Below are positions 25,853 to 54,399 of a stretch of DNA of 64,000 nucleotides, in pieces. Each line of letters opens with the position of its first letter. Positions within the stretch are counted from its first letter, which is position 1. Position numbers and translations under genes: made by a program. This DNA comes from Thermomicrobiales bacterium (GTDB taxonomy: Bacteria; Chloroflexota; Chloroflexia; Thermomicrobiales; UBA6265): positions 1-64,000 of the forward strand of contig JAHBVL010000004.1 in assembly GCA_019637585.1 (NCBI GenBank), written 5' to 3'. The notes beneath the pieces are model-generated. The model was not told where the DNA came from. It saw only the letters and a program-made list of their open reading frames with translations, and made no database searches.

Positions 25853-25887
25853 GGTTGCGCAATGCGCACAAACGGTCAGGAGCGTGT

Positions 25888-29040: not shown

Positions 29041-29099
29041 TTGACAGTGCGACTGCCGTCTCATACCATCAGTAAATCGATTAATGAATCGTTTTACTG
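29041..29099 (+). promoter_or_regulatory. Promoter with LacI-type operator for the sugar cluster
   Basis: TTGACA at 29041-29046 and TACCAT at 29064-29069 (17-bp spacer) form a promoter. Immediately downstream, CAGTAAATCGAT (29070-29081) and ATCGTTTTACTG (29088-29099) are inverted repeats matching 11 of 12 positions around a 6-bp centre. The repeat covers the expected start site, a repressing position. The LacI regulator encoded second in the cluster is the obvious ligand. Confidence 0.65.
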
Positions 29100-29109
29100 G
29101 AGTCAATCG

Positions 29110-33736: not shown

Positions 33737-33737
33737 A

Positions 33738-34547
33738 ATGACCGCTGTCGACACACTGGTACAGAGGGCCGGATTTCCTGTCGAGTTCGATGGTGAGGAG
33801 GGCGCGCTCGTCACCTCCGCTCCACTGGTGTTCAACCGCGTGGTCCGGACCAAAGCCGACATCGCCAAAGTGCTGGTCGACGGCGGCGGCATACCCGACG
33901 ACACCCATCTCTACTGGATTTTCCAGTTGGCGGACGCCGGTGCGGATCAGCAGCGCTTCGAGGCCACCGAAACCACCTATGCCTGCGTTCTGCTGCCGTC
34001 GCGCAAGGTCGGACGGGAGTATGTCAAGACACAGGGGCACTATCACCCTCCGATGCCCGGCACGACGATCGAGTATCCGGAGGTCTACAGTCACCTCTTC
34101 GGCGACATCTACCTCCTCTTACAACGCCGGGCTGGGCAGAGACCGGAAGTAATCGAGGATTTCGTGATCCTCGATATGAAAGCGTGGGGAGCGGTGACGA
34201 TCCCGCCTGGCTATGCCCATGTGCTGATCAATGCTTCTGATGCCCCGGCGGCGATCGCCGGCATCTACGCAACCTCGTTCAAACCCGACTATCACCCGTT
34301 CGTCGATCTGGGCGGCGCCGCCTACTTCATGGTCGACGACGCGGGCGAATCGCTCATTCCGAATCCGAGATACGAGCGGGTGCCGAGACTCAGACGACCA
34401 GCGCCCGGTTCCGACCCAGCCTTTCTGGCGCCGGAGGGAGCCGAACAGCTCTGGACGTCGTTCCTCGAGAACCCGGAACGCTACGCATTTGTCGCTGACC
34501 CACAAGCCGCGCTGGAGAAGTTCGGCCCGATGAAGGAGCTCACATGA
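33738..34547 (+). CDS. Cupin-type glucose-6-phosphate isomerase
   Basis: A 269-residue cupin of the archaeal-type phosphoglucose isomerase family (PF06560-like): YVKTQGHYHPPMPGTTIEYP and EVYSHLFGD (metal His-x-His and Glu), then PPGYAHVLINAS (second cupin motif His). It interconverts aldose and ketose 6-phosphates. It lies one nucleotide after the ROK gene, and overlaps the GH127 start by ATGA. It explains how a hexose 6-phosphate could reach the PfkB step. Confidence 0.88.
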   Translation: MTAVDTLVQRAGFPVEFDGEEGALVTSAPLVFNRVVRTKADIAKVLVDGGGIPDDTHLYWIFQLADAGADQQRFEATETTYACVLLPSRKVGREYVKTQGHYHPPMPGTTIEYPEVYSHLFGDIYLLLQRRAGQRPEVIEDFVILDMKAWGAVTIPPGYAHVLINASDAPAAIAGIYATSFKPDYHPFVDLGGAAYFMVDDAGESLIPNPRYERVPRLRRPAPGSDPAFLAPEGAEQLWTSFLENPERYAFVADPQAALEKFGPMKELT

Positions 34548-37454: not shown

Positions 37455-37529
37455 GGAGGGCCTATGGGTCGACGTTCTGCGAACTGAGAATGAGCCCGGC
37501 CAGTGAGCCGGTCGGACTCCAAACGCCGG

Positions 37530-37559
37530 TCGCGACGCGCGCGATCAGGCTCGTCGCGA
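37530..37559. promoter_or_regulatory. Inverted repeat in the leader of the sugar importer
   Basis: TCGCGACG (37530-37537) is repeated inverted as CGTCGCGA (37552-37559), 25 nt before the binding-protein start, in the only sizeable gap (129 nt) of the plus-strand cluster. It may be an operator, or a stem-loop before the second transcription unit. Confidence 0.35.
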
Positions 37560-37583
37560 ATTGATCAGGAGAGGAGCTCCCGA

Positions 37584-38915
37584 ATGAGTTCACGCATCAA
37601 CCGGATCAGCAACGCAAAACAATTGAGTCGTCGTAGCGCCCTGAAAGCCGCTGGCCTGGGGGCCGCGGGTCTGGGTGTGGCTGGATTGGGTCTGCCCCGG
37701 ATCGGCGGGCAGGTCCGAGCCCAGGACCAGATCACCCTTCGCTATCAGAACCACTGGTCGAAAGAGACCGACGCCCATTACGAGGGGATGAACTGGCTCT
37801 ACGAGTCGTTCCATGCCGCCAATCCCGGCATCACCATCGAGAACATTCTGAACCCGGATAGTCAGGAATCGCGACAGAAGATTCTGGCTGACTGCGCCGC
37901 CGGCGATTGCCCGGACATCATCCACGAGGCCGGGGCCGACATGTGGGAAGGCGGTTATCTGCTCGATCTCACCCCTCACCTCGATGCCGATCCAGACTGG
38001 AAAGCGCAGCTCGATCCCAATGTCCTCGGCACCACCGCGACCGACGGGCAGATCTGGGCGCTCTCAGGCGAGGTTTCGCCGATGTCGACCATCTGGAACA
38101 CCCGCATTCTCGAAGAAGCGGGCGTCTCGGCCATCCCCACGACCTGGGACGAGCTCCTGGCCGCCTCCGAACAGATCGTGGCGATCGGCAAGCTGCCGAC
38201 ATCATGGGAAGTCGGCGGCGTCCACCAGTTCAACAACATCCTCGCCAGCCAGCCTGGTGGACTCGACGCCATCGCCGCCGGTCAGTTCGATGCGCCGCAG
38301 GTGGTCGAGGCGTTCACGCGCCTCAAGGTCTTCGTCGACAACGGCTGGGTGCCGGCCAACGAGCTCGAGCTCACCTGGCAGCAATCGGTCGCGCTCTTCG
38401 TGGCTGAGGAGACCGCCTTCTATCTGAATGGAGCGTGGACGATCGGCAACGAGATCACCGGTGAAGGCGCCGCGCCCGACCTGGCCGACAACGTTGCGTT
38501 CACCCCATATGTGGCAGTGGGCGAAAACGGCACCACGGTCGAGACGAAGCAGACGACCGGTATTGGTCTCGCTGCGTCGCTGGCCGGAGACGAGGCGAAG
38601 CTCGACGCCGCCATCACCTTCTTCAAGCACTGGTTCAACACCGAGAGTGCGACGGAGTGGATCCTTCTGACTCGATCACCGATGGGTGTGACGGTCGACT
38701 TCGAGTCGATCGAGGGAGTCGATCCGATGTTGATCTCCTTCCTCTCCACCGTCAACCAGGCGGATCACCCCTACTCTCTGCCCGGCACCAGGTCGATGCA
38801 GGAGCGTGGGTGGGATCACCCGCAGTCGGGACTCGATACCCTCCTGGCCGGAGGCGGCGTCGAGGAAGCAGTCGAGACATACGTGCTCGAGATGTCGAAT
38901 TACGCGGTCGAGTAG
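37584..38915 (+). CDS. Sugar ABC transporter substrate-binding protein
   Basis: A 443-residue family 1 extracellular binding protein. A Tat-type signal (LSRRSALKAAGLGAAG, then VRAQDQ) precedes the fold: YEGMNWLYESFHAANPGI, DIIHEAGADMWEGGYL, FYLNGAWTIGN. Start ATG 37584 with GAGGAG 8 nt upstream is preferred over the frame from 37503. It captures an oligosaccharide or glycoside for the following permeases; the matching ATPase is not in the window, as is usual for this transporter class. Confidence 0.93.
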   Translation: MSSRINRISNAKQLSRRSALKAAGLGAAGLGVAGLGLPRIGGQVRAQDQITLRYQNHWSKETDAHYEGMNWLYESFHAANPGITIENILNPDSQESRQKILADCAAGDCPDIIHEAGADMWEGGYLLDLTPHLDADPDWKAQLDPNVLGTTATDGQIWALSGEVSPMSTIWNTRILEEAGVSAIPTTWDELLAASEQIVAIGKLPTSWEVGGVHQFNNILASQPGGLDAIAAGQFDAPQVVEAFTRLKVFVDNGWVPANELELTWQQSVALFVAEETAFYLNGAWTIGNEITGEGAAPDLADNVAFTPYVAVGENGTTVETKQTTGIGLAASLAGDEAKLDAAITFFKHWFNTESATEWILLTRSPMGVTVDFESIEGVDPMLISFLSTVNQADHPYSLPGTRSMQERGWDHPQSGLDTLLAGGGVEEAVETYVLEMSNYAVE

Positions 38916-39002: not shown

Positions 39003-39917
39003 ATGCTTACGCGGTCACGTCCCTACTCACCATATGGCAGCAGGTTGGGCATTCTGCTCTTTCTGCTGCCTGGTATCGGCGCATACACGCTGCTGATGCT
39101 CTACCCGACCCTGCTGTCGCTCTACTACAGCGTGCTCGACTGGCAAGGCGGTCCGGTCCGCGACGCTCCGTTCGTCGGCACGGACAACTTCCGCGAACTC
39201 TTCCATGATCGCTATCTGCCGATGGCGCTGTGGAACAACGCCCGGGTGCTCTTTCTCGGCTGGGCATTCCAGCTGCCGATGGCGCTCCTGCTGGCGTTCA
39301 CGCTCAGCCGCCTCAGCCGCGGATCGCAGGTTTATCGTTTTCTCTTTTTCATCCCGGTCATCCTGCCAATCGCCACCCTGGCGCTGATGTGGCGGTTCAT
39401 CTTCTCCGGGAATCAATACGGTCTGCTCAACAACGCATTGACCGATATCGGCCGCGAAGAGTGGATTCGTCCCTGGCTGAGCGCCGATGGCATCGTCCAG
39501 TGGACGACATCCTTTCCGCAGGTCTGGCAGTTCATCGCCTTTTTCATGGTCATCTTCCTGGCCGCGATCGCCGGCATCCCGGAGGAGTACTACGAAGCGG
39601 CGTCGATCGATGGGGCGAACGCGCTACGCCAGCTCAAAGACATCACGCTGCCCGGCATCAAACCGGTCTACATCTCGGCGATGATCCTCTCGCTCAACGG
39701 CGCGCTGGGCGCCTACATCTATCCGCTCCTGATGACACAGGGTGGCCCCCTGCACCGGAGCGAAACGCTCATCTCCTACTCCCTGTACCTCCTCTGGACG
39801 AAGCGGGTCTGGGGATATGGCAGCGCCGTGGCTGTGCTCAGTTTCATTCTCAGCGTGATCGTGGCCACGCTGATCTGGAAGCTCGGTCGCCGTGAAGATC
39901 AGGTGCTGGCCCGATGA
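39003..39917 (+). CDS. Sugar ABC transporter permease, MalF type
   Basis: A 304-residue inner-membrane permease with six hydrophobic segments, beginning GILLFLLPGIGAYTLLMLYP. The cytoplasmic EAA loop is EEYYEAASIDGANALRQLKD followed by ITLPGIKP, the standard docking site for the ATPase. It ends ILSVIVATLIWKLGRR. Weak ribosome site. Overlaps the MalG-type gene by ATGA. Confidence 0.92.
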   Translation: MLTRSRPYSPYGSRLGILLFLLPGIGAYTLLMLYPTLLSLYYSVLDWQGGPVRDAPFVGTDNFRELFHDRYLPMALWNNARVLFLGWAFQLPMALLLAFTLSRLSRGSQVYRFLFFIPVILPIATLALMWRFIFSGNQYGLLNNALTDIGREEWIRPWLSADGIVQWTTSFPQVWQFIAFFMVIFLAAIAGIPEEYYEAASIDGANALRQLKDITLPGIKPVYISAMILSLNGALGAYIYPLLMTQGGPLHRSETLISYSLYLLWTKRVWGYGSAVAVLSFILSVIVATLIWKLGRREDQVLAR

Positions 39918-40819
39918 GCGCTCAAACCTCCACACCAGCCACCCCACCGACCGGCGCGAACGGAGCCGACAGACCGACGACCCGGCCGGGAAACCGGCCC
40001 CAACGGGTGCTCCAGCTCGTGTTGCACCTCGGACTCCTCCTGTGGGCCATCCATGCGATCTATCCGCTGATCTGGATCTTCCTGACCTCGCTGAAGCGGA
40101 CGCGGGAGCTCTACGAGAATCCCTTCGGTCTCCCCAGCGGGTGGCACTGGTCGAACTACACCGACGCCTGGGTGCACGCCCAAATGGGCACCTACTTTGT
40201 GAATAGCGTGGTCGTCACCGCGCTCTCGACGGTGATGGTCCTCTTCTTTTCATCGACCTCCGCATATGTGCTTGCCAGATTTGATTTTCGTTTCAAAGGG
40301 TTGCTTTGGGCTTATGTGCTCTTCGGTTTTCTCATTCCCTATTCGATTCTGTTGATTCCTTTGGCGATCTTCACCCGCGAAATCGGTATCTACAACAGCG
40401 TATTCGGGCTGGCGCTCGTCTATGCGGCGGTCGGCATTCCCTGGAACATCTTCTTCCTGCGGGCGTTCATGGAAACGATCCCGAAAGAGCTCGAAGAAGC
40501 AGCCGTGCTCGACGGCGCGGGAATGGTCGGCGTCTTCAAGGACATCATCCTGCCCCTGTCGACACCGGCGCTGGCCACAATGGCCACATTCCACATCCTC
40601 TCGGCCTGGAGTGAGTACATCCTGGCGCTCGTGCTCACCGGCACCACGGCATCGCGCACATTGCCGGTGGGGATCAGTCTGCTGGAAGGACATTTCACAT
40701 CGAACGAGCCGGGTGTCGCGGCGGGGATGATGATCACGATCATTCCGGCGGTGCTGGCATTTCTCTTTCTACAGCGGTTCGTGATCAGGGGTCTCACCGC
40801 AGGAGCGCTCAAGGGCTGA
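39914..40819 (+). CDS. Sugar ABC transporter permease, MalG type
   Basis: A 301-residue permease with a Thr/Pro-rich cytoplasmic N terminus (about 1-35), the MalG signature IFLTSLKRTRELYENPFG and the EAA loop IPKELEEAAVLDGAGMVGVF followed by ILPLSTPAL. C terminus QRFVIRGLTAGALKG is typical. It joins the GH2 gene by a one-base TGATG overlap, linking import to hydrolysis. Confidence 0.92.
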   Translation: MSAQTSTPATPPTGANGADRPTTRPGNRPQRVLQLVLHLGLLLWAIHAIYPLIWIFLTSLKRTRELYENPFGLPSGWHWSNYTDAWVHAQMGTYFVNSVVVTALSTVMVLFFSSTSAYVLARFDFRFKGLLWAYVLFGFLIPYSILLIPLAIFTREIGIYNSVFGLALVYAAVGIPWNIFFLRAFMETIPKELEEAAVLDGAGMVGVFKDIILPLSTPALATMATFHILSAWSEYILALVLTGTTASRTLPVGISLLEGHFTSNEPGVAAGMMITIIPAVLAFLFLQRFVIRGLTAGALKG

Positions 40820-43563
40820 TGGAAACGTCATCACGCGGCCGCATCGATCTCGACGGCGCCTGGGATCTCGCCTTCGACGAAACGGAGGGACCCACACGTC
40901 TCGACTGGATCGGTGACGGCTGGCCGGCTGAGTCGTCCGATTCGGTCACCGTCCCGGCGATCTGGAATCTGACCCATCCCGACGCGCCAGCCATCGGCTA
41001 CTACCGGCGCGCGTTCGACGTTCCCGTGACATGGTCGAGTCAGCGGATGCGCCTGCATGTCGACGGCGCCTGCTATCGACTCGAGGCCTGGGTCAATGGC
41101 GCATATGCGGGGAGCCATCAGGGCGCCTACACCGGTTTCTGGTTCGACGTCAGCGCCGCGGTCCGGCCCGGGCAATCGAACGAGGTCGTTTTCCGGGTCA
41201 CCGCCCTGCGCAGGGACCGCACCGTCGACGGCATGAATCTCTATGAGATGCCGGTCTCCAAACAGTCGTGGTACCACGTCGAGGGCGGCGTGTGGGGTTC
41301 GGTCTGGCTCGAAGCGCTGCCGGCAGTGAGCATCGAGTCGGTCGCCATCGAACCCGATCTGCGTCGATCTGTCGCCTCGTTCGAGGTCAGTTTCACTAAC
41401 GCCACTCCGGAATCCGCGCATCAGGTTCTGCAGATCGACATCACCGATCCGAATGGCGTGACGACAATCGCGCATTCGGACCCAGTCGTCATTCAGCCCG
41501 GTTCCTCCCGCTACTTCGTCAAGCTGACGATCGCGCGGGCGCTGGCCTGGTCTCCCACCGAGCCCCATCTCTACGCGTCCCGGATCACGATCACCGAGGA
41601 TGGGCATGAGCTCGATAGCCAGACAACAACATTCGGGATGCGCGACTTCACCGTCAAAGATGGACAGTTCTACCTGAACGGCGACGCGATCTTCATTCGC
41701 GGTGTGCTCATGCAGCCGAACTACCCGGCTGGTCTGCTGGCGCCGCTCGATCTGAGCATGCTCGAAACGGAAGTCCGCCTCATGAAAGAGGCCGGTTTCA
41801 ATATGATGCGCGTTCATATCCGCCCGCCGGTTCCCGGCTTTCTCGATCTGACCGACCGCCTCGGCATGCTCGTCTACGAGGAATCGAGTCTGGCCTGGAT
41901 CAGGGAGTCGCCCCGCCTGCTCGACCATGCGCGCCGCGAGATCACCGCGATGATCGAGCGGGATCGCAATCACCCGTCCGTCGTTTTCTGGGGCGTCTTC
42001 AACGAGCACCGCCATCCAGCCGGGCGCTACGCCGACACGTTGATTCGCACTGTCCGGGCGCTCGATAGCACCCGCGTCGTGGTCGACAACTCGGGCGGCG
42101 CCTTCGCCATCGACCAGGACTTCGGGTGGATCGACCGGGCGACGGTCGTGCCCGATCGCTCGACGACCCGGGAGTCGATTCAGGACATCCATATCTACGC
42201 CGGCGCGCCGATCGCCAAGCGGGCGTTCGATTGGCTCGCCTCGATCGGGTCGCCTTTTCAGTCGTTCGACGTCGATGCCCTCGGCATCGGTTCCGATCGC
42301 GTTTTCGACGAATGGAGCCGCGAAGTCCGCGACGATCCGGGACAGATTTTCGTTTCCGAGCTCGGTTGCGGTGGCATGGGCGACCTGGACGAGATGCTTG
42401 CCGGTTTCGAAGGCCAAACCGACCTCGTCGACGCTCGCGAATACCGGGCGTTTCGCGACAGCCTGCACGAAGGCTTTGCCGAGCGGCAGCTCGACAAGCT
42501 GTTCGGATCGATCGACGAGCTGGTTCGCCAGGCGCAGCATCAACAGCGGATGGGCAATCGCCGACAGATCGAAGCGATGTTGATCAACCGGCGGGTTTCC
42601 GGCTACTCGATCACCCAGCTCGCCGACGTTGGTTCCGAGTTCCATGCGGGGATTCTCGACCTCTGGCGCAAACCGAAGCCGGTCTACGACGAGATTCGCC
42701 GCCTCCAGCAGCCTCGCACCATCGTGCTCGATCTCGAGAGCCGCGCCGTTCAGCCGGGAACTGCCACTCAGGTCGAACCCTGGGTGATCGACCAGTTCCA
42801 TGCCTCGGAACGAGACACACTCCAGATCACTGTCACTGACTCGGAAGGACGAGTGCGCGCGGAGCACGCGCTGCAGATCCCCGCCGGTCCGGGCATCAAG
42901 CCCCTGCCCCGGTTCACGATCGAAACCGGCGACACACCGGGCTGGTGGCGAATTGCAGCGCGGCTGGCCAGCGATCCAGGGGTCGTCTGTGAAGAGGAGC
43001 TGATCCTGCTGGCCCCGGTTCAGGCGGAGGTCGATCTGAACTCGACGATTCTCGACGCCACCCGGCCATCGCAGCTGACGCGCGACGCGTGGCAACGCTT
43101 TTTCGAGGGAATCAAGGGTGGTGGCACCGGGATCGTGGGAGACCTTGCCCCCGGCGACGAGCTGGCGCTCGCCATGCTGGCGGAGGCAGGTATCGACGCC
43201 CGCCTGACCATGGGGATCGGCAGCTGGCTGGGTTGCTACCACTGGACGACCGATTCCCCGCTCTTTGCCGGGTTGCCGGCGGGCGGACTGGCGGGAGAGG
43301 TCTATGCCGGCATCGTTCCGCGCTACGTGCTCCCCGAGCATGGTGGTCACCTGCTGGCCGGAAGCATCAGCAACACACAAACCCGAGTGACCGCGCCCGC
43401 CATGACCTGGCATGCCGATGTCGAAGTTGTGCCGCATGGCGACGGGCAAATCATCTTCTGCCAGTACCGCATTTTCGGTGACGACCTCGCTGATCCGGTC
43501 GGGCTGACACTCCGGCAGAATCTTCTTACCTTCGCTTCGAACCTGAAACGAACCGCCATATGA
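40819..43563 (+). CDS. Glycoside hydrolase family 2 protein
   Basis: A 914-residue cytoplasmic glycosidase. An N-terminal jelly-roll (SRGRIDLDGAWDLAFD, YYRRAFDVPVTW), an immunoglobulin-like domain and a TIM barrel are arranged as in beta-galactosidases and beta-glucuronidases. The acid/base Glu396 is in WGVFNEHRHPA and the nucleophile Glu514 in FVSELGCGGMG. An extra C-terminal region of about 280 residues is present. No signal peptide. Galactosidase, mannosidase or glucuronidase specificity cannot be decided by eye. Confidence 0.9.
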   Translation: METSSRGRIDLDGAWDLAFDETEGPTRLDWIGDGWPAESSDSVTVPAIWNLTHPDAPAIGYYRRAFDVPVTWSSQRMRLHVDGACYRLEAWVNGAYAGSHQGAYTGFWFDVSAAVRPGQSNEVVFRVTALRRDRTVDGMNLYEMPVSKQSWYHVEGGVWGSVWLEALPAVSIESVAIEPDLRRSVASFEVSFTNATPESAHQVLQIDITDPNGVTTIAHSDPVVIQPGSSRYFVKLTIARALAWSPTEPHLYASRITITEDGHELDSQTTTFGMRDFTVKDGQFYLNGDAIFIRGVLMQPNYPAGLLAPLDLSMLETEVRLMKEAGFNMMRVHIRPPVPGFLDLTDRLGMLVYEESSLAWIRESPRLLDHARREITAMIERDRNHPSVVFWGVFNEHRHPAGRYADTLIRTVRALDSTRVVVDNSGGAFAIDQDFGWIDRATVVPDRSTTRESIQDIHIYAGAPIAKRAFDWLASIGSPFQSFDVDALGIGSDRVFDEWSREVRDDPGQIFVSELGCGGMGDLDEMLAGFEGQTDLVDAREYRAFRDSLHEGFAERQLDKLFGSIDELVRQAQHQQRMGNRRQIEAMLINRRVSGYSITQLADVGSEFHAGILDLWRKPKPVYDEIRRLQQPRTIVLDLESRAVQPGTATQVEPWVIDQFHASERDTLQITVTDSEGRVRAEHALQIPAGPGIKPLPRFTIETGDTPGWWRIAARLASDPGVVCEEELILLAPVQAEVDLNSTILDATRPSQLTRDAWQRFFEGIKGGGTGIVGDLAPGDELALAMLAEAGIDARLTMGIGSWLGCYHWTTDSPLFAGLPAGGLAGEVYAGIVPRYVLPEHGGHLLAGSISNTQTRVTAPAMTWHADVEVVPHGDGQIIFCQYRIFGDDLADPVGLTLRQNLLTFASNLKRTAI

Positions 43564-44996
43564 CATCGACCGCTGCTACAACTGCCATTACCGAGCTTCG
43601 CCGGGCGCTCGGGGAGGAAAAGGTCTCGACCGCACCGGTCGATCTCATCGCCAACGGGCGTGCGGTCTGGCCGGTCGAGCTCAAACAGGCGCGGCGCGCG
43701 ATGCTGGGGGAGATCGAGTTCGACATTCCAGCGTGTGTGGTGCGCCCTGGGTCGACCGACGATGTCTGCACAGTCCTGCGCATCGCGGACGAGCTTCGCG
43801 TGCCGGTGATTCCCTACGGCGGCGGATCGGGCATCGTGGGCGGCACGGTTCCGCCGCCGGGATCGATCTCGCTCGACACCAAAGCGCTCAATCATATCGA
43901 CGTCGATCCTGTTTCGATGATTGCCAGGGTCGGTGCGGGCTGTTTCGGCATCGAGCTGGAGACGGCGCTGAATAGTCAGGGCTTTACATTCGGGCACTAC
44001 CCGCAATCGCTGTACGTCAGCACGGTGGGCGGCTGGATCGCCACCCGCGCCTCGGGAACCTTTTCCACCCTGCACGGCAACATCGAGGATCGGGTGATCG
44101 GGCTCGATGTGGTGCTGCCCGGCGGCAAGCTGCTGTCGCTCGCCCCTTCGCCGCGATCAGCCACCGGGCCGGACCTCAAAAGCTGTTTCATCGGTTCCGA
44201 AGGAGCATTTGGCGTCATCACCGCCGCGACGCTGGAGCTCGTGCCAACCGGACGGCCAAGACTGCACCAGGCATGTGTTTTCCCGACGTTCCAGCAGGGT
44301 CTGGACGCGGTTCAGCACTTCATCCAGGCGGGCGCCCGGCCGGCTGTCGTGCGTCTGTACGATTCGGGTGAGACGGCGCACAAGTTCGCCAATTTCAGCA
44401 TTCCTGCGGAAGGAGCCATGCTGCTGCTCATCTTCGAGGGAACCGGGACCATCATCGAGCGTGAGTCCGAGGTGGTCGAGGAGATTTGCAGAGGCGCGGG
44501 CGGTCATTCCGCTGGTGCGGGACCGGTCGATCACTGGTGGCAGACCCGCTTCGACACGTCATCCCTGGCCGCCGGAAACTGTGGTGAAGGAGGGTACGCC
44601 GACGCTATCGAGGTCTCGGCGCTCTGGGGTGATCTACCGGCGGTGTATGCGTCGATGCTGCAAGTCGCCACAGACCATGGGGCGCGAGCCTTCGCTCACG
44701 TTTCGCACGTCTATCAGTCCGGCGCCTGCCTCTACGTCATCTTCGCTGGGGAGGCGAAAACCGATCGTGACGCCATCGACGCCTATCAGGCGGTGGTCGA
44801 CGGCCTCCTAGCGAGCTGCCTGGCGAACAATGGGGCGGTCAGTCATCACCACGGCGTTGGCCGGGGCAAAGCACGATCGCTGGCCGCACAACATGGTCCG
44901 GCCGGCATGGAGGCGCTCACCGCACTGAAGCAGGCGTTCGATCCCCACAACATCATGAATCCCGGCGTGCTCGGCTTGGGGGAGATGGTTCGATGA
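43560..44996 (+). CDS. FAD-linked oxidase (GlcD/alkyl-DHAP synthase-like)
   Basis: A 478-residue PCMH-type flavoprotein: ACVVRPGSTDDVCTVLRIAD, then IPYGGGSGIVGGTVPPPGS for FAD phosphate binding, GGWIATRASGTFSTLHGN, and a C-terminal AVSHHHGVGRGKARSLAAQ histidine cluster like alkyldihydroxyacetone-phosphate synthase and D-lactate/glycolate oxidase subunits. The end PHNIMNPGVLGLGEM is typical of the superfamily. Coupled by ATGA to both neighbours; it probably oxidises a hydroxy acid and passes electrons to the next gene product. Confidence 0.9.
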   Translation: MTSTAATTAITELRRALGEEKVSTAPVDLIANGRAVWPVELKQARRAMLGEIEFDIPACVVRPGSTDDVCTVLRIADELRVPVIPYGGGSGIVGGTVPPPGSISLDTKALNHIDVDPVSMIARVGAGCFGIELETALNSQGFTFGHYPQSLYVSTVGGWIATRASGTFSTLHGNIEDRVIGLDVVLPGGKLLSLAPSPRSATGPDLKSCFIGSEGAFGVITAATLELVPTGRPRLHQACVFPTFQQGLDAVQHFIQAGARPAVVRLYDSGETAHKFANFSIPAEGAMLLLIFEGTGTIIERESEVVEEICRGAGGHSAGAGPVDHWWQTRFDTSSLAAGNCGEGGYADAIEVSALWGDLPAVYASMLQVATDHGARAFAHVSHVYQSGACLYVIFAGEAKTDRDAIDAYQAVVDGLLASCLANNGAVSHHHGVGRGKARSLAAQHGPAGMEALTALKQAFDPHNIMNPGVLGLGEMVR

Positions 44997-46114
44997 CGAT
45001 TTTGAGTTCGCAGGTCACCAGCGTCCTGCCGGTGGCACTTGGTCATGATCCGACTGCCTCGCTCTGCCCGTGGGTGCAGGCGACGCGGTCGACCGCCGAC
45101 TATCCATCCCGGAAAGCGCAGATCGCCATCGCGATCCTCAATGGCACGCTGACTCCGACGAGCGATGTGGTCGACTTGATGTACCGCTGCGATGGGTTGT
45201 GTCGATGCCAGCCGCTGCCAGGGCAACCTGACCCCACCGCCTATACGAATCTGATCCATGACGCCCGTGCGGCGCTTGTTTCCGGCGGATTCGTATCCGC
45301 AGCAGAGCAATGGGCGACCAACTGGCGCGAGTATGGCAACGTCTACGGCAGAATCGAGCTCGACGAGTCGTGGCTCGATCGCGACTCGCCTTCCAGCGCG
45401 GTGCTCTACGTGCCGGGGACCGCTTCGCTCTTCCTCGATCCCGCCGCCGCAGCGGCGAACGTGCAACTGCTCCGGCGAGCCTTCGGGTCAGTGACGATCG
45501 ATCCCGAGCTGCTCGATGCCGGTTATGTGCTTCGCCAACTCGGGCTGCAAACCGAATGGGAGGCGGAACGGGACCGGGTTCGCGAGTTGGTAGCCCGAGG
45601 CGGATATCAGGCGGTTGTCACCACCACGCCCAGAGAGGCGATAGGACTCGCGACAGCGCTCGCGGACCAAGCTGCAGTCGTATCGTCGCTCCTCGACTCG
45701 GTCCAGCCCTGGATGACATCGATGAGAACCCATCTCCGGCCTCCCGATTCGCGAATTTCTTTTGCACTCCAGCCGACCGAAGAAATGGCTGTGGAAAGGG
45801 AGAGCGCGATCATTCTGCTGGAGCACCTGGCCCATTGCAGTGGGCGTGAAATCGTCACCCTGGCGCCGGAAGCAACCTCGCCCGCCGCGATCGAACGACC
45901 GATCCTGCCATCCACAGAGCAGCTGAGCAGGAGATTCGCCGAAACATGCGCAGATGAGCTTCTGGAGCTCCACGACGGTGAGAACCTCGTCGTCCTCACG
46001 GTCGATCCCTTCTCCAAACGTGCACTGGCCGATCAGCTGGGCGCGAGGGCAAGAGTCGTGAATGTCGCCGCGTTCCTTTGCGAACACCTGGAAGGCGAGC
46101 GCACCGATGCCTAA
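44993..46114 (+). CDS. Divergent Fe-S oxidoreductase-like partner of the flavoprotein
   Basis: A 373-residue protein of uncertain family. The position after an FAD oxidase, and the segment YRCDGLCRCQPLPGQPDPTA, recall GlcF/LutA-type iron-sulphur subunits, but the usual C-x2-C-x2-C-x3-C-P pattern is reduced to C-x3-C-x-C and no CCG motif occurs later. The middle and end show an alternating helix/strand pattern (VLYVPGTASLFLDPAAAAANV, VVLTVDPFSKRALADQLG). It may carry one atypical cluster or have lost it. Overlaps neighbours on both sides. Confidence 0.6.
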   Translation: MTILSSQVTSVLPVALGHDPTASLCPWVQATRSTADYPSRKAQIAIAILNGTLTPTSDVVDLMYRCDGLCRCQPLPGQPDPTAYTNLIHDARAALVSGGFVSAAEQWATNWREYGNVYGRIELDESWLDRDSPSSAVLYVPGTASLFLDPAAAAANVQLLRRAFGSVTIDPELLDAGYVLRQLGLQTEWEAERDRVRELVARGGYQAVVTTTPREAIGLATALADQAAVVSSLLDSVQPWMTSMRTHLRPPDSRISFALQPTEEMAVERESAIILLEHLAHCSGREIVTLAPEATSPAAIERPILPSTEQLSRRFAETCADELLELHDGENLVVLTVDPFSKRALADQLGARARVVNVAAFLCEHLEGERTDA

Positions 46115-47234
46115 CCGACGACTCCGCGGCGCACTCATCGGTTCGGGGAGCATTGCCCAGTATCACCTGGCCGCCTGGCAGCAGATCCCCGACGTCGAGA
46201 TCGTCGCGATCAGCAATCGCACCACCGCCAGGGCAGGCGAACTTGCGCTCCGATTCGGTATCGGAACCGACCACGTTCACCCGTCCACGGCAGCGCTGCT
46301 GGCCGCGGAGCAACAACTCGATTTCGTCGATATCGTCACCGCTCCCGATCTTCATCGAGCCGATGTCGAGCAGTCCGCGGCCGCGGGAGTGGCGCATATC
46401 CTCTGCCAGAAACCACTCGCTCCGACGATGGACGATGCACTGGCGATGCGTGATGCGGTCAGATTCCATGGCGCCACGCTGACTACCAACGAGAACTGGC
46501 GGTGGCGTTCCTGGTATCGCCAGTTGAAAGATGTGCTCGACAGCAAGCGTCTCGGCGAGCCGCGTTACGCCAGAATCGCCGCTCACCACAATGTCGCGCT
46601 TGGGCATCCGGGCGCACCGCCGCCTATTCTGCAGCGCCAGTCATACACGGCGTCGATGTCCCATTTTCTGGTGATGGAGTGGGGCGTGCACCTGATCGAC
46701 ACATTACGGATGCTCCTCGGCGAACCGCAGTGGGTGCACGCTGCGATGAGCCAGGCCAGCCCCTACTTCCAGGGGGAGGACCGGGCCGTGATCTCGCTCG
46801 GATTCAGCGGGATCATTGCGTCGATCGACATCAGCTGGGCCACACACGCTTCGCCATCGCCTCCGACTCTCCTGGAAGAGACAACGATCGAAGGGGACGT
46901 CGGGACGATCAGTCTCATCCCCAATCGCGGCGATGGCGATCTGATCCGGCTGGTCGAAGCGCTTCCTCTGGAGGCTTTGCCAATCGATCGCGAACGGCCC
47001 TGGAGTCCGGTCGCGGTCACCTCGACGCCCGCCCATGACGGCAACATCGCCGCCGCCTATCAAGCGTCGTTCACTGCAGCACATCGTCATTATGTGCATT
47101 CCTGGCTGTCGAACCAATTGCCGGAAACGCACATCGACGACAACCTCCGAACGATGGAGGTGATGTTCGCGGCCTATCGATCGGCCGAATCGAACGAGGT
47201 CATCCGACTAGAAGGGGTTCCCAATTCCCAATGA
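46107..47234 (+). CDS. Gfo/Idh/MocA family oxidoreductase
   Basis: A 375-residue NAD(P)-dependent dehydrogenase: Rossmann motif ALIGSGSIAQYHLAAW, the family EKP motif as CQKPLAPT (Glu replaced by Gln), and the substrate-side WGVHLIDTLRMLLGEP. ATG 46107 overlaps the previous gene by 8 nt. Family members oxidise sugar hydroxyls, cyclitols or glycosides. It fits oxidation of the released sugar in this cluster. Confidence 0.9.
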   Translation: MPNRRLRGALIGSGSIAQYHLAAWQQIPDVEIVAISNRTTARAGELALRFGIGTDHVHPSTAALLAAEQQLDFVDIVTAPDLHRADVEQSAAAGVAHILCQKPLAPTMDDALAMRDAVRFHGATLTTNENWRWRSWYRQLKDVLDSKRLGEPRYARIAAHHNVALGHPGAPPPILQRQSYTASMSHFLVMEWGVHLIDTLRMLLGEPQWVHAAMSQASPYFQGEDRAVISLGFSGIIASIDISWATHASPSPPTLLEETTIEGDVGTISLIPNRGDGDLIRLVEALPLEALPIDRERPWSPVAVTSTPAHDGNIAAAYQASFTAAHRHYVHSWLSNQLPETHIDDNLRTMEVMFAAYRSAESNEVIRLEGVPNSQ

Positions 47235-48004
47235 ATCCAGCTGACCTCCGTGTGAGGAACTTCCGTCTCTTTCCGGCGGACGCGCCGCTCGGCGAACGAG
47301 AGCAGGCGCAGACGATCGATCTCGACCGGACAGCGCTCCTGCTCGTCGACGTCTACCACGCCGCCGCCGATCCGACAGCACGCGAGCTCGTCCACGGCGC
47401 CTGGGATGTGGAGTTCGCCCAGATCATCGAACGTGGCCTGACGCCATTGCTTGCAGCGGCTCGAGGCGCCGGTTTGCCGGTCATCTACGCCATGAATGCC
47501 GCCCCTCTTGTGGCGCTCGGTCAATCACCCTACGGCTGGAGCTTTCGCGAGAGTCTCGGATTCGACCCGGAGCAGGATTTCGCCGAGCCGGAGGTCGATC
47601 CGCTCGAATTCAAACGGGGCGAACTCGTTCAGCTCACCATCCCCGACACCCTGAAACCGGAGCCGGGCGACTACTACGTCCGCAAACACACCTACAGCGG
47701 CTTCGCGGCCACGCGCCTCGAAACGCTCCTGCGCAATCTCGATGTCCGCACACTGATCGTCGCCGGTTTCGCCACCGACTGCTGTGTTTTGTTCACGATC
47801 GCCGACGCCACCTTTCGCGGGTTTCAGTCGATTCTCGTTCGCGACTGCACGCTCGGATCCGAGCTGCCGTCCGAAATCGATTCGTTCGCCAACACTCACC
47901 GCACGATCACCCAGATCGAGAGCTTTCTCGCGGTCAGCGCGTTGTCGGCCGACGTCATCGAAACGCTGGCCGTCGCACAGGGTAAGAAACGGCACGCACC
48001 GTGA
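47231..48004 (+). CDS. Isochorismatase-like cysteine hydrolase
   Basis: A 257-residue hydrolase with the catalytic triad Asp (LLLVDVYHAA), Lys (YVRKHTYSGF) and Cys (GFATDCCVLF). Such proteins hydrolyse amides (nicotinamide, N-carbamoyl or ureido compounds) or vinyl ethers. Unusually long loop before the Lys motif. It overlaps the Gfo/Idh gene by ATGA and the metallohydrolase by 4 nt, so it is part of the same pathway. Confidence 0.9.
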   Translation: MNPADLRVRNFRLFPADAPLGEREQAQTIDLDRTALLLVDVYHAAADPTARELVHGAWDVEFAQIIERGLTPLLAAARGAGLPVIYAMNAAPLVALGQSPYGWSFRESLGFDPEQDFAEPEVDPLEFKRGELVQLTIPDTLKPEPGDYYVRKHTYSGFAATRLETLLRNLDVRTLIVAGFATDCCVLFTIADATFRGFQSILVRDCTLGSELPSEIDSFANTHRTITQIESFLAVSALSADVIETLAVAQGKKRHAP

Positions 48005-48837
48005 CGTTCGACCACATCGATCTGACCGGTATGATCGATCTCCATATCCACGGCGCTCCCGACGTTCGCCCCCGCAAGCTGAACGACATCGAGATCGCCC
48101 GGCAAGCGGCATCCGCCGGTATGAAGGCGATCGTGCTCAAGTCGCATGTCACCCTCACTGCGGATCGGGCCACGCTCGTCGAGGCGATGGTGTCGGGGGT
48201 GATGGTCTTCGGAGGACTGGCGCTGAATCACCCCGTCGGTGGCATCAATCCAGTCGCGGTGGAGATGGCCCTGAAGATGGGAGCGGCTCAAATCTGGATG
48301 CCAACCCTCTCATCCTCCGTACAACGGCACACGCCGATGCTGCCGGGCATCGCCCTGGCCCCGGACGGCGCGATCATCCCCGCCGCGCATGAAGTGCTCG
48401 AGTTGATCGCCTCCTACGACGCGATTCTCGGTACCGGACACCTCTCCGTCGCCGAAATCGAGCTTCTCCTGCCCGCTGCCCGTCAGGCGGGCGTCAAGAA
48501 GATCCTCGTCACCCACCCGGAGCACCCGCCCGTGGAGATGCCGCCCGACCGGCAGAAAGAACTCGCTCGCAAACACGACGTGCTCTTCGAACGGTGCTTC
48601 ATTTCGACGCCGAGTTGTGTCGACGGCGAGCTGCCGTTCGACCGCCTCGCCCAGATCATCCGCGACGTCGGACCGGAGTCGACCATCATCTCGACCGATC
48701 TCGGTCAGACCGTCAATGCACCGCCGGTTGAGGGGTTCGCCTCGTATGTCGACCAACTGCTCGCCGCGGGATTCACATCGAAAGACGTCCGACGCATGGG
48801 AGCCGACAATCCCGCCACCCTTCTTGGAGTTGCCTGA
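48001..48837 (+). CDS. DUF6282-type metal-dependent hydrolase (amidohydrolase superfamily)
   Basis: A 278-residue barrel protein starting at GTG 48001. Metal-site features: His-x-His in MIDLHIHGAPD, Lys/His in VLKSHVT, His in LVTHPEHPP and Asp in ISTDLGQTVNAPP. It resembles phosphotriesterase/TatD-like amidohydrolases and DUF6282. The substrate is unknown; its place after an amidase-like gene suggests opening of a lactone or cyclic amide. Confidence 0.8.
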   Translation: MTFDHIDLTGMIDLHIHGAPDVRPRKLNDIEIARQAASAGMKAIVLKSHVTLTADRATLVEAMVSGVMVFGGLALNHPVGGINPVAVEMALKMGAAQIWMPTLSSSVQRHTPMLPGIALAPDGAIIPAAHEVLELIASYDAILGTGHLSVAEIELLLPAARQAGVKKILVTHPEHPPVEMPPDRQKELARKHDVLFERCFISTPSCVDGELPFDRLAQIIRDVGPESTIISTDLGQTVNAPPVEGFASYVDQLLAAGFTSKDVRRMGADNPATLLGVA

Positions 48838-49790
48838 TGACCCAACGGATCGCGTATATGGAACCGGTGCCACCCGACGTCCAGGAGATCATTCGCTCCA
48901 GACTTCCCGACGGCTACGAAATCGACTTCCGGCCAAGTGACGCAGCGCCCGTCGCTTTCGCCAGGGACGCCGACTTCGTCATGGTGGCCACGACGAGAAT
49001 CGACGATTCGCTGCTGCAGGCAGCCACGCAGCTCCGGCTCGTCCAGCACCAGGGGGTCGGGTACGACAATATCGACCTCGAAGCCGCCCGTTCCCGTGGT
49101 GTCCCGGTGGCCATCTGCCCGGAAGGGACCAGCGTGGGGGTCGCCGAGCACGTCATTCTTCTGATCCTGTCGATCTACCGTCGTCTCCTCGAAGCCGACG
49201 CCTCGATCCGCCGTGGCGAATGGCTGCAGTGGGAGTTGCGGCCAACCTCATTGGAGCTCGCCGGGAAGACTGTGGGACTCGTTGGGTTTGGGAGGATCGG
49301 CCGGGAAGTTGCCCAACGCCTGCGCGGGTTCGACGTGGATGTTCTCTACTACGATCCCTTCCGCGCTGATGTGAGTGTTGAAGAGGCATTTGGTGTCCGT
49401 TTCGTCTCACTCGATGCGCTGCTCGCCGAATCGGACATCGTCAGTCTTCATCTTCCGCTCTCCGCCGAAACCCGAGGATTGGTCGACGCTGAGTTTCTAG
49501 CCGGGATGAAGCAGTCGGCGATCCTCATCAACACGGCGCGAGGCGGTCTAGTCGACCAAACCGCATTGATCGACGCGTTGCGAAACGGCGTGATTGCAGC
49601 CGCCGGTCTCGATGTTTTCGCAACCGAGCCGCTCCCTCCTGACAGTCCCATCCGCGCTCTGCCGAATGCCGTTCTCACCCCGCACATCGCCGCCGGAACC
49701 GCCGACGCGCTGCGCACCAAGATGGACGCCTGTTTCGCCAATATCGTCGCTATCAGCAGCGGGCGCGAGCCTGCCAACCGCATTGCCTGA
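48837..49790 (+). CDS. D-2-hydroxyacid dehydrogenase
   Basis: A 317-residue dehydrogenase of the phosphoglycerate-dehydrogenase family. NAD motif VGLVGFGRIGREVAQRL, catalytic Arg in LINTARGGLVD, Glu in LDVFATEPLP and His in VLTPHIAAGT. It interconverts a 2-keto and a D-2-hydroxy acid, perhaps hydroxypyruvate, glyoxylate or the product of the downstream aldolase. Start overlaps the previous stop by one base (TGATG). Confidence 0.92.
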   Translation: MTQRIAYMEPVPPDVQEIIRSRLPDGYEIDFRPSDAAPVAFARDADFVMVATTRIDDSLLQAATQLRLVQHQGVGYDNIDLEAARSRGVPVAICPEGTSVGVAEHVILLILSIYRRLLEADASIRRGEWLQWELRPTSLELAGKTVGLVGFGRIGREVAQRLRGFDVDVLYYDPFRADVSVEEAFGVRFVSLDALLAESDIVSLHLPLSAETRGLVDAEFLAGMKQSAILINTARGGLVDQTALIDALRNGVIAAAGLDVFATEPLPPDSPIRALPNAVLTPHIAAGTADALRTKMDACFANIVAISSGREPANRIA

Positions 49791-49801
49791 GGAGCATTCC
49801 A

Positions 49802-50503
49802 ATGACCTCCACACCCGGATTTCGCATCCTGCTCGACACCAGAAGACCCACGACGGCGCAGATTCTGCCGTTCACCGGGGTTCCAGCCGGCAACGTCTCC
49901 GATGCCATGGATCGCCTCGGCGCGATGGACCATAGCATCAAACCGATCGACCCGGCCTCGACCCTGCTCGGACCGGCGCTCACCGTTCGCACTCGGCCCG
50001 GCGACAACCTGATGGTCTGGAAAGCGCTCGACGTCGCCAAACCGGGCGATGTGCTGGTGATCGCCACCTATGGATTTCTCACGACGAGCACGCTCGGTGA
50101 GAATGTGGTCAAGGTGGCGGCGGCGAAAGGCCTGGCCGGTATCGTGACCGATGGCGCCTGCCGCGACGCGACCGGCATCCGGGCGACGGGAGTGCCCGTT
50201 TTCTGCGCTGGACTCGTGCCGTCCAGCCCATCGAAGGATGGTCCGGGTGAAATCGGCGGCTCGATCACCTGCGGCGGTCTCCCGGTTGACGCGGGGGACA
50301 TCATCGTCGGCGACGAGGATGGCGTTGTCGTGGTCCCCTTTGTGGACATCGACGCCGTCTCCAAACGCCTCGACGCCGTTTCCGCCAAGGAAGCGGCCAT
50401 GCAAGCGATGATCGAGTCAGGACAGCTCATTCCGGACTGGGTCGATCGCGTCCTGGCGGAGAAAGGGTGCGAGGTCGTTCGGTCGGCTTCGGGCTCCGCG
50501 TAG
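49802..50503 (+). CDS. RraA-type aldolase (HMG/CHA aldolase-like)
   Basis: A 233-residue protein of the RraA/4-hydroxy-4-methyl-2-oxoglutarate aldolase family: ALTVRTRPGDNLMVWKAL, GDVLVIATYG, and the metal/substrate loop VTDGACRDATGI with its Arg-Asp pair. Such aldolases release pyruvate from branched keto acids, and are often mis-called RNase E inhibitors. GAGGAG precedes ATG 49802. Last gene of the plus-strand cluster. Confidence 0.88.
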   Translation: MTSTPGFRILLDTRRPTTAQILPFTGVPAGNVSDAMDRLGAMDHSIKPIDPASTLLGPALTVRTRPGDNLMVWKALDVAKPGDVLVIATYGFLTTSTLGENVVKVAAAKGLAGIVTDGACRDATGIRATGVPVFCAGLVPSSPSKDGPGEIGGSITCGGLPVDAGDIIVGDEDGVVVVPFVDIDAVSKRLDAVSAKEAAMQAMIESGQLIPDWVDRVLAEKGCEVVRSASGSA

Positions 50504-52464: not shown

Positions 52465-54399
52465 ATGTTGGGATTCGGCAAACTGATGCGAGGATTCGTC
52501 GACCGGAAGGAACGCTTGGCCCCTTCGATCGCATCCCTCCCAGGTGGCTCAGGCTTCGAGTCGACCCGCTATCTCGCTCGCTGGCTGATCCTCGGATCAG
52601 TCATAGGACTTGTGGCGGGATTGGGGGCGGTGGCGTTCGACCGCGCCATCGTCTGGTCAACGCAATTCTTCCTGGGAGAACTCGTCGGGTATATGCCGCC
52701 CGCGCCCGTTGGTGAGGGAGAGTCCATTCGCCGCGCCTTCGAACGAGCGTGGGCGTTGCCGCTGGTAACCGGTCTGGGGGGTCTTGTTTCTGGAATCATC
52801 GTCAGTCGCTTGGCCCCTGAGGCCGAAGGACATGGAACAGACGCCGCAATCGAAGCGCTGCACTACCGGTCCGGACGCCTGCGGTTTCGAGTGGCTCCCG
52901 TGAAGCTGGCGGCATCGGCAATCACGATTGGCAGTGGCGGGTCAGCTGGACGCGAGGGGCCGACCGCCCAGATTTCAGCCAGTTTTGCATCCACGCTCTC
53001 GGACCGCATCGGACTCGACCCGCAGAACCGGCGAATCGCGGTTTCTGCCGGAATGGCTGCTGGGATTGGGGCGATTTTCCGGGCGCCTTTGGGCGGGGCA
53101 CTCATGGGGGCCGAGATTCTCTATATCCATGATCTCGAAGTCGAGGCCATCATTCCCTGCCTGATCGCATCGATTGTCAGTTTCTCTGTCTTCGGCACGA
53201 TGGAGGGGTTCGACCCGATCTTTGGCGCTCAGCCGAACCTTGGTTTCGAACACCCAGGAACAATCGCCTACTACGCGATCCTCGGCGCGATTTGCGGACT
53301 CGTTGGGCTCCTCTATGCGCGCTCCTTCTACGGTGTTTCAAGTGCGTTCCACCGAATGAGGCTGCCGATGTGGCTCAAGCCTGCGATCGGCGGACTGATG
53401 GTCGGGTGCATCGGGTTGATCATTCCGGGCGCGCTCGGATCGGGATATGGATGGATTCAGATCGGCATGAGCGCCGAGGTGATGTCGCTTCCACTCTGGA
53501 CGATCATGCTGCTGCCATTTGCCAAGATCCTCTCGACGTCACTCTCGATCGGTTCGGGAGGCTCCGGCGGCATCTTCGGGCCAGGCATGGTGATCGGCGG
53601 CATGCTGGGAATTGCGTTCTGGCGCCTTGGTGACGGCGTACTGCCCGGACTGCCGGAAACCGCCGCGCCATTTGCCATCGTTGGCATGATGGCCCTCTTT
53701 GGAGGGATCGCCCATGCGCCGCTGGCCGTCATGCTCATGGTGGCCGAGATGACGGGGAATCTCACCCTGCTGGCGCCCGCAATGGTCGCGGTTGCAATCT
53801 CGACCGCACTCGTTGGGGACAACTCCATCTACAGAAGCCAATTGCCAACCCGGGCAGACTCACCTGCATATCGGGTTCGGCTTAGCTTTCCGCTTCTCTC
53901 ATCCCTCCACGTTCGCGACGCCATGCGCGCTCTTCGAACACCGGGACAGGAGATCGACGACACACTTCGCCTCAGTCCCAACCTGCCCCTCGACGAAGCG
54001 ATCGAGCAGATCAGCGAGGCAGAACGCTCCCATGCGGTCGTCGTCGAAGCCAACACCCCTGTTGGCACAGTCTCGATCCGCGACATTCTGACCACCTATC
54101 GGGCCACATTGGCCCGAAGCGTCCGCCGAAGCCAGGCTCTCTCACCCGACACGACACTGATCGAATTGCAGATTGGGCCATACGCCGCAGTCGCTGGGCA
54201 TACACTGAGCGATGCATCGCTGCCCGGTCGGGCTCTCGTGGTCGGCATGACCCGCGACGGTCAGGCGATCTTCCCTCAGGCATCCACTCAGCTCAAGGCC
54301 GGCGACATGCTGATGGTAATGGGCGATCCGGCCGTCGAGCGTGAGCTGCATGAGTTGTGCGACTCCGATCATCGACAAGCATCACCGGGAGGACCGTAG
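52465..54399 (+). CDS. ClC-family chloride channel/antiporter with CBS and TrkA-C domains
   Basis: A 644-residue membrane protein. Filter motifs: GSGGSAGREGP (gating Glu164) and GGIFGPGMVIGG; the transmembrane core spans about 35-455. A soluble CBS-like pair (HVRDAMRALRTPGQEID, SHAVVVEANTPVGTVSIRDI) and a C-terminal TrkA-C-like domain (LIELQIGPYAAVAGHTLSDA) would bind nucleotide or ligands. GAGGGG lies 9 nt before ATG 52465. Proline in GREGP marks it as a chloride rather than fluoride ClC. Confidence 0.92.
   Translation: MLGFGKLMRGFVDRKERLAPSIASLPGGSGFESTRYLARWLILGSVIGLVAGLGAVAFDRAIVWSTQFFLGELVGYMPPAPVGEGESIRRAFERAWALPLVTGLGGLVSGIIVSRLAPEAEGHGTDAAIEALHYRSGRLRFRVAPVKLAASAITIGSGGSAGREGPTAQISASFASTLSDRIGLDPQNRRIAVSAGMAAGIGAIFRAPLGGALMGAEILYIHDLEVEAIIPCLIASIVSFSVFGTMEGFDPIFGAQPNLGFEHPGTIAYYAILGAICGLVGLLYARSFYGVSSAFHRMRLPMWLKPAIGGLMVGCIGLIIPGALGSGYGWIQIGMSAEVMSLPLWTIMLLPFAKILSTSLSIGSGGSGGIFGPGMVIGGMLGIAFWRLGDGVLPGLPETAAPFAIVGMMALFGGIAHAPLAVMLMVAEMTGNLTLLAPAMVAVAISTALVGDNSIYRSQLPTRADSPAYRVRLSFPLLSSLHVRDAMRALRTPGQEIDDTLRLSPNLPLDEAIEQISEAERSHAVVVEANTPVGTVSIRDILTTYRATLARSVRRSQALSPDTTLIELQIGPYAAVAGHTLSDASLPGRALVVGMTRDGQAIFPQASTQLKAGDMLMVMGDPAVERELHELCDSDHRQASPGGP

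Follow-up and report, generated by a model that had tools for sequence, protein, structure and literature searches.

A LacI-headed gene run in a Thermomicrobiales bacterium as a possible mosaic glycoside operon of three catabolic modules

Introduction

The final steps of protocatechuate 4,5-cleavage and of gallate degradation run through LigC, LigI, LigJ or GalB, and LigK, and LigC is a Gfo/Idh-type oxidoreductase. The hydrolase of this series belongs to the amidohydrolase superfamily and the aldolase to the RraA family. A figure legend in PMC8431788 lists a dehydrogenase, a 2-pyrone-4,6-dicarboxylate (PDC) hydrolase, a hydratase and a CHA aldolase for such operons. Cleavage of CHA gives pyruvate and oxaloacetate, and homologues with the RraA fold mostly retain aldolase motifs, as stated in PMC5065237. 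The oxidative D-apiose and tetronate pathways employ a lactonase, a Gfo/Idh oxidoisomerase, a 3-oxo-acid kinase and a decarboxylase, and an enzyme list for an apiose cluster appears in PMC11747546. In the GlcD-GlcF glycolate/D-lactate oxidase complexes, an FAD enzyme is found adjacent to a GlcF-type partner.

Here we analyse a locus that recalls each of these systems. It lies in a stretch of 64,000 nucleotides from a Thermomicrobiales bacterium (assembly GCA_019637585.1, contig JAHBVL010000004.1, positions 1 to 64,000), hereafter the window. In a preliminary description, eight genes from a GH2 glycoside hydrolase to an RraA aldolase were held to be translationally coupled throughout, and it was suggested that they deglycosylate, oxidize, ring-open, hydrolyse and cleave one compound in the order in which they are encoded.

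Results

A same-strand run from a LacI-family regulator to RraA

The eight open reading frames are located at 40819-50503 and belong to the families first assigned to them, save one. They form the 3' half of a longer forward-strand run (30123-50503) that begins upstream, at a LacI-family regulator that is likely the first gene (30123-31151; PF00356, PF00532) and whose HTH domain puts the start near 30123. It is followed by a class II aldolase/adducin family protein (31148-31786; PF00596) that falls under every NCBIfam cut-off shown, a PfkB sugar kinase of the hexose-phosphate kinase subfamily (31779-32744; PF00294; 227 bits to TIGR03168, cut-off 216.4), a ROK sugar kinase devoid of an N-terminal HTH (32741-33736; PF00480; 183.5 bits to TIGR00744, below the cut-off of 260) and a cupin-type glucose-6-phosphate isomerase, GPI (33732-34547; PF06560). 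The four families PF00480, PF06560, PF00294 and PF00596 thus occur together in the run, all above gathering. The next gene encodes a GH127-like protein, a possible glycosidase (34544-36217; PF07944, 73 bits), with a weak match to an aceric acid hydrolase model (45.6 bits, cut-off 950). An ABC importer comprises a sugar-type solute-binding protein (37503-38915; PF01547) and two permeases (39003-39917 and 39914-40819; both PF00528). The GH2 glycoside hydrolase (40819-43563; PF02836, PF00703, PF02837) is nearest to beta-glucuronidase in the PDB (142 bits) and stays under all 11 NCBIfam cut-offs listed; at E<=1e-90 the window's own genome is the only one of 158 genomes of the class to contain it.

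A cytochrome P450 (36207-37454, start inferred; PF00067; top PDB sequence match PksS, 4yzr) sits within this sugar operon, and no ferredoxin-type partner was detected among the proteins scanned around it. Literature searches brought up nothing relevant on glycoside operons of Chloroflexota that combine a P450 with an aldolase, or on RraA in the company of glycoside hydrolases.

From GH2 to RraA the junctions measure -4, -4, -8, -4, -4, -1 and +11 bases. Coupling by overlap therefore extends to six of the seven junctions and stops at RraA, which starts 11 bases past the end of the 2-hydroxyacid dehydrogenase gene. The start of the Gfo/Idh gene was set at the ATG at 46107 on the basis of the overlap; the mechanical ORF start is 46062. 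Most upstream junctions overlap too (class II aldolase -4, PfkB -8, ROK -4, GH127-like -4, second permease -4, GH2 -1), and the solute-binding protein gene is bounded by gaps of 48 and 87 bases. Because so much overlap accumulates on one strand, its extent would be hard to ascribe to chance. Past RraA, a HAD hydrolase and a luciferase-like protein are encoded on the opposite strand. Promoter and terminator scans gave results near chance, the exception being 28400-31200, where two promoter-like sites compare with an expectation of 0.6.

Elsewhere in the window, 7500-14586 encodes a dipeptide-type ABC importer (SBP_bac_5 and permeases), a creatininase, an enolase-superfamily acid-sugar dehydratase-like protein and an SDR. 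A second enolase-superfamily gene is found further on (20134-21534), as is a protein resembling family B DNA polymerases that includes an exonuclease domain (22243-24615). The sole Rfam match in the window is a fluoride riboswitch (25776-25854; 34.1 bits, threshold 34), and a CLC-type channel gene is located far from it, at 52465-54399.

The FAD enzyme and its cysteine-poor partner

The FAD enzyme (43560-44996; PF01565, PF02913) is of the AGPS/GlcD type. Its best PDB sequence match is alkyl-DHAP synthase, followed by D-lactate dehydrogenase, and its score against the GlcD equivalog, 175.6 bits, is below the cut-off of 567.9. In alignment it displays SHHHG where a haloarchaeal relative has SGEHG, and we take this triple-His motif to be a mark of AGPS. 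Relatives at E<=1e-50 are present in 19 of the 158 class genomes, the window's included; the closest are in genomes G149 (46%) and G097 (about 42-43%). The G149 contig stops ~600 bases past its FAD gene, too early to show a partner gene.

The adjacent protein (44993-46114) had been described as the second of a pair of FAD oxidases. The first member of that pair stands as an FAD enzyme; an oxidase role for the second found no support, and the designation was rejected. At E 0.001 neither Pfam nor NCBIfam offers a match to the protein, which is homologous to the GlcF family: it scores 53.2 bits (E 1.5e-15) against an independent profile of eight Fe-S subunits from which the window protein and its G097 counterpart had been left out, and the top score among 1,315 decoys (1,000 shuffles and 315 ORFs) was 7.8 bits. 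The G097 partner (L121:11119-12201) reaches 143 bits against the same profile. Homologues of the subunit adjoin homologues of the FAD enzyme at this G097 locus and at loci L124 and L125. The L124 and L125 partners carry Fer4 domains, in L125 with an additional CCG domain, and keep the eight cluster cysteines. The window protein has cysteines at 25, 66, 70, 72, 282, 319 and 363, which do not make up the two 4Fe-4S ligand sets: C25 and an altered C66/C70/C72 group are retained. Its G097 counterpart has no cysteines at the cluster positions, though it still lies beside the FAD enzyme. Because of the profile scores and the missing ligand cysteines, we regard the pair as an FAD enzyme and a GlcF-type subunit whose 4Fe-4S clusters have probably been lost.

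Other searches with the cysteine-poor subunit gave two chance-like matches in the PDB and none among plasmids, and its close relatives in the 158 class genomes amount to the window protein itself. A single-sequence structure prediction attained a pLDDT of 38, and a literature search for FAD/GlcF systems with lost cysteines yielded nothing relevant. At L124 and L125 the FAD-enzyme relatives are grouped with AP_endonuc_2 and UPF0261 proteins and, at L124, also with Gfo/Idh proteins.

A related sugar operon in a distant class member

G097, a distant member of the class, encodes in order the FAD enzyme, the cysteine-poor partner, a DeoC-type aldolase, GPI, PfkB, ROK and GH2. Adjoining this set are a divergent ABC importer, a GH36 and a GH2 gene. 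The G097 operon shares with the window the FAD enzyme, its partner, GPI (36%), PfkB, ROK, GH2 and an ABC importer, and differs in having the DeoC-type aldolase where the window has the class II enzyme. Among the 158 genomes cupin-type GPI occurs only in G097 and in the window's own genome. The 20 kb around the G097 set contain no match to Gfo/Idh, the cysteine hydrolase, DUF6282, the 2-hydroxyacid dehydrogenase, RraA, the P450 or the GH127-like protein, and the genome has neither DUF6282 (E<=1e-20) nor RraA (E<=1e-25). Because G097 groups the FAD pair with the sugar-phosphate genes in a setting free of DUF6282 and RraA, we assign the pair, by gene company, to the putative sugar-phosphate module.

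From Gfo/Idh to RraA

The Gfo/Idh/MocA oxidoreductase (46107-47234; PF01408, PF22725) has as its top PDB match 5uhw, spanning query residues 4-365, which we take to be a D-apionate oxidoisomerase. The isochorismatase-fold cysteine hydrolase (47231-48004; PF00857) is nearest to RutB (8bkd, 63 bits): Asp and Lys align and the Cys lies within a conserved segment, presumably completing the triad of an isochorismatase-fold hydrolase. It scores 68.4 bits against the RutB equivalog (ureidoacrylate hydrolase), under the cut-off of 377.95, and in 400 genomes at E<=1e-25 only the window's own contains a close relative. Nothing supports the earlier attribution of ring opening to this enzyme. The D-isomer-specific 2-hydroxyacid dehydrogenase (48837-49790; PF02826, PF00389) precedes the RraA-family protein, of the class II pyruvate aldolase type (49802-50503; PF03737, 149.7 bits). 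The latter is closest in the PDB to CHA aldolase 3noj and bears the motif E-X20-R-D, the commonest form, which 46 of the 71 family stretches in the alignment share if the window's own is counted; X20-R-D is presumably the metal/enolate motif of the RraA/HMG-CHA aldolase family. All NCBIfam scores reported for it lie below cut-off, including those to PRK09262 (122.3 bits, cut-off 179) and TIGR02798 (98.4 bits, cut-off 304.5), and it falls short of the LigK equivalog. Identification as CHA aldolase was rejected on the PRK09262 and TIGR02798 scores.

The best plasmid matches of the window RraA and 2-hydroxyacid dehydrogenase are neighbours on one plasmid of Roseibium aggregatum, in a run that encodes an ABC importer, RraA, the 2-hydroxyacid dehydrogenase, an Amidohydro_2 protein, Gfo/Idh, FucU/RbsD, OtnK and OtnC. 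Identity to the window proteins is about 47-48% for RraA, 47% for the dehydrogenase, 31% for Gfo/Idh, 30-34% for the permeases and 25% for the class II aldolase. OtnK and OtnC, products of tetronate genes, score above equivalog cut-offs. The Roseibium amidohydrolase is lactonase-like, its top NCBIfam match being 4-sulfomuconolactone hydrolase (87 bits, cut-off 500). GH2, the FAD pair and DUF6282 are missing from this set. The Roseibium run indicates that RraA, the 2-hydroxyacid dehydrogenase and Gfo/Idh recur alongside genes for sugar import, with a different gene order and a different amidohydrolase.

DUF6282, a predicted amidohydrolase

The DUF6282 protein (48001-48837) matches PF19799 with 215.8 bits, against a gathering cut-off of 26.8. 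An AF2 model made with an alignment of 50 of 81 sequences (the window and 80 loci; alignment A4) has a pLDDT of about 94 (94.3). In VIA-align it reaches Z scores of 19-21 with phosphotriesterase (PTE)-like proteins, one of which is the Listeria lactonase Lmo2620, and with a latent dihydroorotase. The model displays a TIM barrel like that of amidohydrolases, with HxH followed by His, His and Asp: H17, H147, H172 and D233 are invariant in the 50 rows, and H15 (H15xH17) also in an 8-row set. A PDB sequence search gave no match; LigI and LigJ are not among the best 50 rows of either fold search, an absence that is no evidence. We found no paper naming DUF6282 in a literature search. On the model, the window protein is probably a lactonase-type amidohydrolase that would open ring-shaped acids.

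The family spans many bacterial phyla and archaea. A scan of genome contigs confirmed 280 relatives. For the 80 best of them, neighbours were counted within 4 kb, a distance not available on one side at 22 of the 80 loci. Among these best 80 of 280, GalB adjoins DUF6282 at 44 loci and a LigJ-like hydratase at 9 (either one at 53), an RraA-type aldolase at 49, and hydratase and aldolase jointly at 47. Gfo/Idh (2/80), the 2-hydroxyacid dehydrogenase (1/80) and a window-type FAD enzyme (2/80) are rare companions in the same best 80 of 280. A single distant query for COG3618 gave no match in the 80 loci. In a Thermus locus (L021) the PIG-L protein matches 5cgz, a 4-oxalmesaconate hydratase, with E 1.8e-55; at L050 a 4-oxalomesaconate tautomerase and a CHA aldolase exceed their cut-offs, and 'LigJ' there is our own reading of a hydratase-like protein that passes no NCBIfam model. 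Within the window's class, DUF6282 is present in 10 of 158 genomes and GalB in 11; the eight genomes with both have the two genes adjoining by coordinates, and the window's genome and G096 have DUF6282 in the absence of GalB. The association of DUF6282 and RraA with aromatic-type hydratases is also seen in the window's own order. Because GalB/LigJ and a CHA-type aldolase are its neighbours, and given the operons listed in PMC8431788, DUF6282 appears to fit the place of PDC hydrolase, and in those loci we consider it a candidate PDC hydrolase unlike LigI.

In the tree, the window protein falls outside the 72-row GalB/RraA clade (support 100/98), on a long branch (0.86) at an open fork with the lineages of L029 and of the haloarchaeal loci L020, L025 and L026. 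Their DUF6282 neighbours are a 2-hydroxyacid dehydrogenase in L029 and a fused FAD/Fe-S enzyme in the haloarchaea.

Several of these loci merit a record of their own. DUF6282 is beside a GalB/LigJ hydratase and a CHA-type aldolase in L021, L033, L035, L050, L078, L151 and L152, and it has such a hydratase as neighbour in 53 of the 80 loci L028-L107 (the best 80 of 280); some of all these loci add a C23O-type dioxygenase. The haloarchaeal plasmids conserve a nitrilase-type hydrolase, the fused FAD/Fe-S enzyme and DUF6282, together with an amidohydrolase, an HTH protein and a glycine-betaine-type ABC importer. L029 (1671-11297) presents in a row a gamma-glutamyltranspeptidase-like protein, the 2-hydroxyacid dehydrogenase, DUF6282, a ThDP enzyme and a TAXI-TRAP transporter, labels that were read by eye except for the dehydrogenase, DUF6282 and TRAP.

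Discussion

Based on these observations, we tentatively propose that the run is a LacI-controlled catabolic glycoside operon, a mosaic of three modules that ends at pyruvate-type acids; we hold this to be a possible reading, not quite a probable one. The modules are kept apart in other genomes and are joined here by overlapping genes. In the first module, the ABC importer would take up a glycoside or short glycan, from which GH2, perhaps with the GH127-like protein, would release sugar inside the cell. In the second, hexose would pass through the ROK kinase, the cupin isomerase, the PfkB kinase and the class II aldolase, and the FAD enzyme, together with the GlcF-type subunit that has lost cysteines, may oxidize a hydroxy-acid or a sugar-derived hydroxyl. 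In the third, the remaining acid or sugar-acid part would be converted to a lactone or keto form by Gfo/Idh, an amide or carbamoyl group would be removed by the isochorismatase-fold hydrolase, and DUF6282, as a lactonase-type amidohydrolase, would open the ring; the 2-hydroxyacid dehydrogenase would interconvert 2-hydroxy and 2-oxo acids, and cleavage by RraA would yield an aldehyde together with pyruvate or a similar oxo acid. We infer every one of these reactions and their substrates, the control by LacI and the action of the third module on the product of the first two. Oxidation, hydrolysis and aldol chemistry are plausible for the Gfo/Idh-to-RraA half, and the active-site motifs examined in the cysteine hydrolase, RraA and DUF6282 are kept, in support of the three-module reading. 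Against it, no dehydratase is encoded in the run, no locus outside the window was found with all modules, and in the genomes searched GH2, the cysteine hydrolase and the cysteine-poor subunit are without close relatives. The rarity of Gfo/Idh, the 2-hydroxyacid dehydrogenase and a window-type FAD enzyme near DUF6282, and the RraA scores below the NCBIfam cut-offs, also speak against it.

What are the implications of such an arrangement? If the proposal is correct, it shows how a glycoside operon can grow by the addition of ready-made catabolic modules, and DUF6282, a family so far without a function, gains a definite reaction class open to assay.

How else might the run be explained? Two separate pathways might share one operon: a glycoside/hexose set would span LacI through the FAD pair, and a hydroxy-acid set, spanning Gfo/Idh through RraA, would serve another nutrient of the same habitat. 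G097 has the first set alone, in a genome lacking DUF6282 and RraA at the thresholds given above, and Roseibium has RraA, the 2-hydroxyacid dehydrogenase and Gfo/Idh with neither GH2 nor the FAD pair. Against this, the two halves are joined by a stop/start overlap of 8 bases between the GlcF-type and Gfo/Idh genes, the Roseibium set includes genes for sugar import and for a class II aldolase as well, and other DUF6282 lineages, in haloarchaea and Priestia, adjoin an FAD enzyme; we judge the two-pathway explanation rather unlikely, while a serious one. The processing of one glycosylated compound in gene order, from GH2 to RraA, draws on the order itself, on the overlaps and on enzyme classes compatible with the chemistry. 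The classes are indeed consistent with oxidation, with the opening of a ring and with an aldol cleavage; a single compound for all the enzymes and a fixed sequence of reactions do not follow from them. The second FAD protein is instead an Fe-S-type subunit with lost cysteines, and the set is largely split in relatives, the very observation that the preliminary description named as its refutation, which leaves the scheme refuted in part: the FAD pair is separate in G097, RraA, the dehydrogenase and Gfo/Idh in Roseibium, where RraA comes first, and DUF6282 with RraA beside hydratases. DUF6282 and RraA recur together elsewhere, as do RraA, the dehydrogenase and Gfo/Idh. Gene order was accordingly rejected as a guide to reaction order, and this explanation is improbable.

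An aromatic aglycone degraded in the manner of protocatechuate 4,5-cleavage would make Gfo/Idh the counterpart of LigC, DUF6282 that of LigI and RraA that of LigK. It would account for the 47 of 80 loci (best 80 of 280) in which DUF6282 accompanies GalB/LigJ and a CHA-type aldolase, and it agrees with the operons in the legend of PMC8431788. The 18 proteins of the run, all covered by the Pfam scan, include no extradiol dioxygenase, however, and no OMA/CHM hydratase of the GalB/LigJ kind; GalB is absent from the genome at E<=1e-40, the window RraA is under the CHA aldolase cut-offs, and the window DUF6282 is outside the well-supported clade. Membership in the protocatechuate 4,5 pathway was rejected for want of a dioxygenase and a hydratase and for the scores of RraA below the LigK-equivalog cut-offs, which leaves the aromatic explanation highly improbable.

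The proposed three-module operon can thus be set beside the systems with which we began. It has in common with the GlcD-GlcF complexes an FAD enzyme adjacent to a GlcF-type partner, and departs from them in an FAD enzyme that is far under the GlcD cut-off and nearest to alkyl-DHAP synthase, and in a partner that lacks both 4Fe-4S ligand sets. With the oxidative apiose and tetronate pathways it shares a Gfo/Idh protein nearest to 5uhw, and its Roseibium relative has OtnK and OtnC; in contrast to that relative, the window run contains no PF07005/PF17042 (DUF1537-type) kinase and has DUF6282 in place of an Amidohydro_2 lactonase. The likeness to the protocatechuate and gallate endgame lies in the Gfo/Idh-type oxidoreductase, the amidohydrolase-superfamily hydrolase and the RraA-family aldolase, and in the DUF6282 relatives that adjoin GalB/LigJ and CHA-type aldolases, whereas the window RraA and DUF6282 are set apart from the enzymes of that endgame by score and by tree position. 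One may speculate, although we consider it doubtful as a whole, that the operon encodes an undescribed route for carbohydrates that parallels the meta-cleavage endgame of aromatic compounds. In it Gfo/Idh would oxidize a sugar-derived ring to a lactone, DUF6282 would open it and RraA would yield pyruvate, while hexose phosphates are processed in a branch alongside and the AGPS-like FAD enzyme works with a cluster-less partner. On this view the DUF6282 proteins of the main clade would also stand in for LigI, which they do not resemble in sequence.
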